Positions 1-2,407 of a stretch of 64,000 bases of DNA are shown one piece after another. The stretch is from NCBI GenBank assembly GCA_008933635.1, contig WBUQ01000010.1, forward strand, positions 1 through 64,000, written 5' to 3'. This DNA is from Desulfobulbaceae bacterium. Lineage in GTDB: Bacteria > Desulfobacterota > Desulfobulbia > Desulfobulbales > Desulfocapsaceae. The notes under the pieces are model-generated. The model was given only the letters and a program-made list of their open reading frames with translations. It made no database searches and was not told where the DNA came from. The translations under genes and the position numbers were made by a program. Within the stretch, counting starts at the first letter, position 1, and each line of letters begins with the position of its first letter.

Positions 1-153
1 CCATGGTACTACATTGTGACATGCCACATCGTATTACTCGCTTTGCATTGTTCCACCGGACCAAGGGGACAATCCCTGCTGCTATTCCCGGTGCATGCCT
101 TGCGGGGACGGGGTCCTGTGGGCTCAACAAACCATTGCACAAGAGAGACGAAC

Positions 154-1113
154 ATGAATGAAGCGTTGATTCTCGAAAGGCTGGACAGACTCTCCGCTGA
201 AGTGCAGCTGATGCGTTCGGAGGTGCTCCGTGAAGTGCGGCAGGAGCTGGAACCATTCCGGCAGAAGGCGGAGCAGCCGCCCCTCGCCTCGCTGCTGGAG
301 GCGTCCGACGACCCTGCCGCCAGGGAAGACCTGGACCAGTTGGTCAGGGCCCTCTCCGGCAGCCTGGCGGAACTGACCGAGGCGGTGGAGATCATCAAGG
401 CCGGCGTCCAGCTCAGGCAGGACATGGCCCCCGTCCTCCGTCAGACCTACCCGCGGACCCTCGAATTCTTCGCCGAACTCGATGGCGATTTCTACTTCGA
501 CGAGCTGGTCATCCTGCTGCGCAAGGCCATCACCAATCTCGACACCATCGGCGAGGGCATCGACCTGCTGCGGGCCGGGGTGGAACTGCGCGACGACCTG
601 GTGCCGATCCTGCAGCTCCTCTACCCACGCCTGATCCGTTTCCTCAACGCGCTGCACGAGGGCGAGTTCCAGGCGGAAAAGCTCGGGGACCTGCTGCACA
701 CCATCCTGATCAACATCCATACCTTGAGCGACCTGCTCAACATGATCCAGCCGATGACCGAATTCGTCAAGGAATTCGGCGTTGTCCTGAAGGAAACGGA
801 TGTCATGAAAGGCGTCAACATCTGGCTCGACGGGCTGCAGCAGAGCAGTGGCCTGGTCAAGCTCGCCGGCACCATGTTCACCTTCATGAGGCGCATCGAC
901 TGCAACGAGAACCAGATCGATCAGATCTGCCAGACCATCAACACGCTGGATTTCACCCGCATCCAGCCTGTCGGGCCGCTGGACATGATTCGGCAGCTCA
1001 GGGACCCCAAGGTACAGGAGGCGCTCGGCTTCTTCTTCACGATGCTGCGGATGGTGGGCGGGTTCCTCCAGGGCTACCAGGCGGACAAGAAGGAACAGCA
1101 GGCGGTCTCCTGA
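154..1113 (+). CDS. DUF1641 family protein, probable SQR partner
   Basis: This 319-residue acidic, largely helical protein has no signal peptide or clear membrane span. I chose ATG 154 (MNEALILERLDRL) because the open frame upstream to position 16 reads as low-quality sequence and the purine-rich stretch 'agagagacga' precedes 154. Paired segments of the form 'F..L..DF..DELV.LLRKAITNL' and 'FLNALHEGEF..EKLGDLLHTI' recur, as expected for DUF1641. Genes of this family commonly sit beside type III sulfide:quinone oxidoreductases, and one follows here 67 bp downstream on the same strand. An accessory role for that enzyme is inferred; its biochemical function is unknown. Confidence 0.85.
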   Translation: MNEALILERLDRLSAEVQLMRSEVLREVRQELEPFRQKAEQPPLASLLEASDDPAAREDLDQLVRALSGSLAELTEAVEIIKAGVQLRQDMAPVLRQTYPRTLEFFAELDGDFYFDELVILLRKAITNLDTIGEGIDLLRAGVELRDDLVPILQLLYPRLIRFLNALHEGEFQAEKLGDLLHTILINIHTLSDLLNMIQPMTEFVKEFGVVLKETDVMKGVNIWLDGLQQSSGLVKLAGTMFTFMRRIDCNENQIDQICQTINTLDFTRIQPVGPLDMIRQLRDPKVQEALGFFFTMLRMVGGFLQGYQADKKEQQAVS

Positions 1114-1180: not shown

Positions 1181-2407
1181 ATGAAAAAGTTAGTCATACT
1201 CGGCGCCGGAAGCGGTGGCACCATGATGGCGAACAAGATGCGCAAGGACCTGGATGACGACTGGTCGATCACCCTGATCGACAAGGACAATGTCCACTAC
1301 TATCAGCCGGGTTTCCTGTTCGTTCCGTTCGGCATCAACAAACCAAGGGAAATCAGGCGCAGCCGGCGCGAGTTCATCAAACCGGGCATCGATTTCGTGA
1401 TCTCGGAACTGGTCAATGTCGACTGGGACAAACAGCAGGTGACAACTGCTACCGAAGGAATCTTTAAATATGACATCCTGATCATGTCCACCGGCTGCGA
1501 CATCCGGCCGGAAGAGGTCGAGGGGCTGCAGGAGGGCTGGGGAAAGGATATCTACGGCTATTACCGTTTCCACGACTGCCAGGAGCTGGGCAAGGCCCTG
1601 AAGAAGTTCAAGGGCGGGAAAATGGTGGTGAACATCGCCGAGATGCCGATCAAGTGCCCGGTGGCCCCGCTGGAGTTCGCCTTCCTGGCCGACTGGTATT
1701 TCCACGAGCGCGGCATCCGCGAAAACGTCGAGATCGAGTTCGTCACCCCGCTGGCCGGGGCCTTCACCAAGCCGGTGGCGACCAGGGTGCTCACCGAGGC
1801 CTGCCAGGACAAGAACATCAAGATCACCCCCAACTTTGCCCTCGGCGGGGTCGATCACCGGCGCAAGGTGATCAGCTCCTATGACGGCACCGAGGTCGAA
1901 TACGATATGCTCGTCTCCATCCCGCCCAACTTCGGGGCTCAGGTGATGATCGATTCCGGCATCTCCGACCCGATGGGCTATATCCCGGTGGACAAGCACA
2001 CCCTGCAGCCGAAAGGGCGCGACAACGTCTGGGTGCTGGGCGACGGCACCGACGTGCCGACCTCCAAGGCCGGGGCGGTCGCCCATTTCCAGGGCGACGT
2101 CCTCCATGAGAACATCATGGCCTATATCTCGGGAGGTGAACAGCATGCGCGCTCGGATGGCCACGCGGTCTGATTCATCGAATCGGGCTTCGGGAAAGCC
2201 TATATCATCGACTTCAACTACACCACCGAACCACTCACCGGCAAATATCCGTTTCCGGCCGTCGGTCCGCTCAACCTGCTGAAGGACACCGAGATGAACC
2301 ACATGGCCAAGCTGATGTTCAAGTGGGCCTACTTCAACCTGCTGCTCAAGGGGGTATGGCTGGGACCGCCTACCATGATGATGGAGGGGAAATACCGCGA
2401 CGACTGA
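1181..2407 (+). CDS. sqr: Sulfide:quinone oxidoreductase, probable selenoprotein (UGA at codon 331)
   Basis: This is an FAD-dependent, membrane-associated enzyme that oxidises sulfide and passes electrons to quinone. The N-terminal dinucleotide-binding motif GAGSGG is followed by Cys106 (MSTGCD) and Cys159 (IKCPVAP). At codon 331 (2171-2173) an in-frame TGA sits in GHAV-TGA-FIESG, where homologues read G-H-A-N-C-F-I-E. That Cys is the C-terminal member of the redox pair that carries polysulfur. After the TGA the same frame continues with conserved sequence (FGKAYIIDFNYTTEPLTG, then LMFKWAYFNLLLKG) to TGA 2405-2407, giving 408 residues. A hairpin at 2178-2211 could be the SECIS. Alternatives are a recent nonsense mutation or a base error, but the intact tail argues against decay. 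RBS AAAGGAGAG lies at 1160-1168. A standard pipeline would stop at 2173. Confidence 0.85.
2178..2211 (+). promoter_or_regulatory. Candidate bacterial SECIS hairpin in the sqr mRNA
   Basis: Starting 5 nt after the in-frame TGA, an outer TCGA/TCGA helix (2178-2181 with 2208-2211) and an internal loop lead to a perfect 5-bp stem GGCTT/AAGCC (2186-2190 with 2196-2200). The apical loop is CGGGA (2191-2195). The loop begins 18 nt after the TGA and has a G at its second position. Known bacterial SECIS elements are local hairpins at this kind of distance with an exposed G in the loop. SelB binding is inferred. Confidence 0.6.

Follow-up and report, generated by a model that had tools for sequence, protein, structure and literature searches.

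A probable selenocysteine codon at the catalytic cysteine position of a sulfide:quinone oxidoreductase gene in a Desulfobulbaceae bacterium

The question raised by this locus is whether a TGA triplet within a gene ends the protein or encodes an amino acid. The DNA analysed here (the window) comprises positions 1 to 64,000 of contig WBUQ01000010.1 from the Desulfobulbaceae bacterium assembly GCA_008933635.1, and contains a gene of the sulfide:quinone oxidoreductase (SQR) family that is interrupted by TGA at codon 331 (Table 1). A first-pass annotation of the sequence had proposed that this codon is read as selenocysteine (Sec), at the position of the catalytic cysteine. The sequence comparisons described below confirm the observation and support this reading, which would place Sec at the active site of an enzyme central to sulfide oxidation, in bacteria that are usually seen as sulfide producers, and would tie sulfide oxidation to the supply of selenium.

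Table 1 Features of the locus (positions in the window)
Feature	Position	Strand	Remarks
Sec-containing type III SQR gene	1181..2407	+	ATG start, 408 codons, final TGA as codon 409; assigned by translation with TGA as U, NF049943 match, human SQOR as best solved relative
Cys159 codon (MPIKCPVAP)	1655..1657	+	N-terminal redox Cys, partner of Sec331; invariant in Sec and Cys sets
UGA codon 331, read as Sec	2171..2173	+	In the alignment column of the C-terminal SQR redox Cys
Selenocysteine insertion sequence (SECIS) hairpin	2185..2201	+	6-bp stem, 5-nt apical loop CGGGA (2191-2195), 17 nt past the UGA
DUF1641-family gene	151..1113	+	PF07849 match; start codon inferred

The in-frame TGA and its recoding signals

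The frame was read again, and the coordinates and counts given previously are correct: there is a single in-frame TGA, at codon 331, and it is followed by 77 further conserved residues. The context of this codon is DGHAV-U-FIESGF, so that residues 328-331 (HAVU) match the motif HxxU, with U from the in-frame UGA. The context quoted for homologues in the first-pass annotation, GHANCFIE, is close to that of the Cys homologues (FDGHANCYIETG). The 408-residue product aligns over its full length, with 84-91% identity, to those of more than 10 independent genomes, all of which have TGA at codon 331, and the interrupted frame is therefore not a chance occurrence.

A clear pattern is seen in the alignment of homologues. 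At column 331 there is TGA in 39 genes and TGC or TGT in 30 Cys homologues, and no other codon; the alternation between Cys and UGA that had been suggested as a check is thus present at exactly this column. TGA occupies the position in all the aligned Sec genes of the main Desulfobulbales clade (clade 1, see below), and an SQR match with an internal TGA is present in approximately 40 Desulfobulbales genomes. The ratio of non-synonymous to synonymous polymorphism (pN/pS) is 0.155 upstream of the TGA and 0.183 downstream, indicating similar purifying selection on both sides. A full-length product of about 408 residues, as the first-pass annotation had expected, thus appears to be conserved across genomes.

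The published model for bacterial SECIS elements (PMC13188914) has a loop of 3-9 nt, a stem of 4-16 bp, a G within the first two loop positions, a spacing of 16-37 nt and a minimum free energy of -7.5 kcal/mol or lower. The hairpin that follows codon 331 lies within all of these limits; its loop begins with CG, and the segment from the UGA onward folds with -9.5 kcal/mol. Its sequence is strikingly constant. Synonymous codon choice was compared in 30 distinct clade-1 Sec genes, at codons with the same amino acid in all of them and excluding Met and Trp: a single codon is used at 6 of 6 sites in the hairpin (334 and 336-340), as against 0 of 160 sites elsewhere (Fisher p ~4e-11). In the set of Cys homologues, codons 334-340 vary. 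The hairpin varies so little that there is almost no base-pair covariation.

The genome also contains the machinery needed to make and insert Sec. All four of the genes selA, selB, selC and selD, which had been named as a further check, were detected, with scores over cut-off for tRNA-Sec (69 bits), selA (624 bits), selB (360 bits) and selD (370 bits). The selD gene (locus L126, G000:C131:142000-144000) itself holds one in-frame TGA, and selenophosphate synthetase is probably a selenoprotein too. Among related genomes, 19 of the 20 tested have a tRNA-Sec over cut-off.

These observations have to be set against two simpler explanations. If the TGA were a true stop, the gene would be either a pseudogene or a functional gene for a protein of 330 residues, and the frame beyond the TGA would be a remnant. 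TGA does serve as a stop elsewhere in the genome, and standard gene calling yields a 330-residue open reading frame (ORF), but the same codon is TGA in at least 30 aligned genes and is never TAA or TAG, selection continues beyond it, homologues have Cys codons in its place, and the frozen hairpin is found together with the Sec machinery. A true stop is consequently regarded as highly improbable. It could also be supposed that a TGC or TGT was turned into TGA by an error of sequencing or assembly, the genome being assembled in 240 contigs. This is less probable still, and is in effect already refuted, as the same TGA is found in many independent assemblies, including those of the isolates Desulforhopalus singaporensis DSM 12130, Desulfopila aestuarii DSM 18488 and Desulfosediminicola flagellatus IMCC35005. 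The independent assemblies and the pN/pS values between them rule out sequencing error and pseudogene. Recoding of codon 331 as Sec is thus strongly supported by the comparative sequence evidence.

Protein family and proposed function

The protein matches the NCBIfam model NF049943, "type III sulfide quinone reductase, selenoprotein subtype", over residues 2-404 with 667.1 bits (curated cut-off 525), and Pfam Pyr_redox_2 (PF07992), the FAD-binding fold of pyridine nucleotide-disulfide oxidoreductases. By sequence and profile the closest relative with a solved structure is human SQOR, with 169 bits compared to at most 68 for any other family. An AlphaFold2 model (mean pLDDT 79.8) likewise has human SQOR as its best fold match (TM 0.86 over approximately 408 columns), and also matches NDH-2 and FCSD. 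Cys159 aligns with the Cys of TPVKCAGAP in human SQOR, and codon 331 with the Cys of DGYTSCPLVTG; we take these to be the redox pair Cys201 and Cys379 of the human enzyme. Both redox positions, C159 and C/U331, are invariant across the Sec and Cys sets. Human SQOR (6OI5, 6OI6, 8DHK), which is a type II SQR, therefore has the same fold and the same two redox positions, but is only ~27% identical and has Cys at the C-terminal position, where the window protein is predicted to have Sec. The assignment to type III follows the NCBIfam name.

The family is not new. In 2025 deep-Sep had already predicted a selenoprotein SQR family (PMC12013277), with D. flagellatus as one of the source organisms, and in Table 1 of a 2026 review (PMC13188914) this family is identified with NF049943 and given the motif HxxU; these independent predictions also speak for the present reading. 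The D. flagellatus IMCC35005 gene (L070) is 78% identical to the window gene, which comes from the same order and differs from the catalogued subtype in nothing essential. It is thus an additional member of a known selenoprotein family and not a new kind. The expectation in the first-pass annotation that automated annotation would report a truncated protein of 330 residues is out of date, now that a dedicated model exists. Its remark that no characterised selenoprotein SQR was known still seems to hold as regards biochemistry, no activity data or biochemical characterisation having been found in the literature searched. It should be added that a Cys gene without TGA (G053, C12:2954-4165) scores 680 bits with NF049943, and other Cys-only SQRs are also far above the cut-off, so that a match to this model is not in itself proof of Sec. 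The name "selenoprotein subtype" may for that matter mislabel Cys-only SQRs.

A class III SQR subtype has been described from cable bacteria, Desulfolithobacter and Desulfopila (PMC13047784), in which Cys159 and Cys339 are reported to be the canonical type III pair. The order is the same, and these residues apparently correspond to Cys159 and Sec331 of the window protein. The described subtype differs in being a Cys form with the additional residues Cys11 and Cys226, and selenocysteine is not mentioned in that study.

From the sequence we have the family, the correspondence of residues, the recoding signals and the recoding machinery; what the enzyme oxidises, where its electrons go and how selenium affects its kinetics are inferred. 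In SQR, sulfur is held between two redox residues beside the flavin adenine dinucleotide (FAD); sulfide attacks, quinone receives the electrons by way of FAD, and the sulfane sulfur, as it grows, departs from the C-terminal redox residue. By analogy with this biochemistry, the following mechanism may be proposed. SelB and Sec-tRNA would read codon 331 under the direction of the SECIS hairpin (2185-2201). Cys159 and Sec331 would then lie on either side of the FAD isoalloxazine ring and carry the bridging sulfur, which would be attacked by sulfide; Sec331 would take the sulfane sulfur away in the form of a selenopersulfide or polysulfide, and two electrons would pass through FAD into the quinone pool. 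Sec at this position would be expected to have a lower pKa and to be ionised at neutral pH, with faster formation and release of the Se-S bond and faster exchange of sulfur.

A number of points weigh against this proposal. The folding energy of the hairpin is by itself not exceptional (z of about -0.7 to -1.0 for the window sequence), and the question of the SECIS is decided by synonymous-site conservation and not by the thermodynamic z-score. The AlphaFold2 model has low confidence after residue 340; of the membrane-binding amphipathic helices that mark the C-terminus of an SQR, a candidate helix at 371-389 is predicted within this low-confidence part. The function as a type III SQR rests on homology, and no experiment showing sulfide oxidation by an NF049943 protein was found in the literature searched. 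The protein could instead be a Sec-containing flavin oxidoreductase from the SQR/NDH-2/FCSD superfamily that acts on something other than sulfide, such as persulfide, polysulfide or selenide, or that carries out a reaction of the thiol reductase type. The additional fold matches to NDH-2 and FCSD would fit this, as would the partner gene DUF1641 (see below), which has no known function; but sequence and fold both point clearly to human SQOR as the best match, and the two redox positions of SQR are each conserved, which makes a different substrate unlikely. We consider it very probable that the product is a flavoprotein of the SQR family, putatively membrane-associated and of type III according to NCBIfam, with Sec in place of the C-terminal redox Cys.

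Apparent exchange between selenocysteine and cysteine

As the family itself has been predicted and modelled before, the more interesting remainder is the history of exchange between Sec and Cys. Such exchange has been called rare, with Sec-to-Cys reversion documented mainly for FdhA and SelD (PMC13188914). A tree of 69 SQR rows, for which no rooting was inferred, contains two Sec clades. One is the Desulfobulbales clade (clade 1), and the other, outside the order of the window gene, is in another family (f21) of the phylum, in genomes G485 (with two paralogous Sec copies), G525, G505, G392 and G300 (loci L128, L129, L131, L132, L133 and L134). The hairpin of the second clade is different, namely CGAGAAGG-GGUC-CCUUCUCG, with 8 bp and the loop GGUC. 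This unrelated hairpin suggests that Sec was gained independently at the same residue.

Three Cys lineages are nested in the Sec clades: L071c/L125b, L140a/L141a and, in the second clade, L137a/L138a. In L071 (2484-3707 and 4001-5224) and L125 (3242-4465 and 4759-5982), a Cys-SQR lies ~290 bp upstream of a Sec-SQR, with a DUF1641 homologue upstream of the tandem. The genomes with the Cys genes L140a and L141a (G176 and G178) each have a Sec copy as well. L137a (L137:2533-3708) has the codon TGC but still folds the second-clade hairpin (GAGAAGGGGUCUCUUCUC), which is probably a SECIS fossil left after Sec-to-Cys reversion. When the Sec region was left out of the alignment, a single clade of the clade-1 Sec genes was rejected by the approximately unbiased test (p = 0.0017), which was framed after the first tree had been seen. 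The nested Cys lineages, at least three in number, thus look like Sec-to-Cys reversions. As the rooting was not inferred, the term reversion here rests on the nesting and on the shared SECIS sequence, and it would also cover gene conversion in which a Cys paralogue supplied a short segment.

Taken together, the balance tips slightly towards a history with at least two gains of Sec at one and the same catalytic site, with unrelated SECIS hairpins, and at least three losses back to Cys, and in which the Cys and Sec copies that coexist in Desulfobulbales, once in tandem, may be isoenzymes of sulfide oxidation that are switched by selenium. The two Sec clades with different hairpins and the nested Cys lineages go beyond what is stated in the cited literature, and this would appear to be a well-documented bacterial case of Sec-to-Cys reversion. 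Natural pairs of paralogues within one genome would also permit a direct comparison of Sec and Cys in SQR chemistry.

Neighbouring genes and distribution

The DUF1641 gene is separated from the Sec-SQR gene by 67 bp, and the two are probably co-transcribed. Nearly all Desulfobulbales loci for which enough flanking sequence is available have a DUF1641 homologue as the gene immediately upstream of the Sec-SQR, and its product is a candidate SQR partner or membrane adaptor. Downstream, on the opposite strand, is a two-component system consisting of a sigma-54 response regulator and a histidine kinase. When the window was scanned by codon usage, no further TGA stood out as a convincing case of read-through. 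The other matches look like antisense or out-of-frame ORFs, and an antisense ORF of 525 residues at 1190-2767 was set aside as an effect of codon composition.

No second type III SQR was seen in the 96%-complete assembly of this genome, and the SQR function, if it is used, would therefore depend on selenium. The Sec-SQR gene has a patchy distribution among 58 relatives and across the whole order, and two congeners carry tRNA-Sec without it. In two further cases (G043:C53:21350-22524 and G068:C11:965-2145) the Sec-SQR is split into two frames near codons 170-210, as a result either of assembly frameshifts or of decay.
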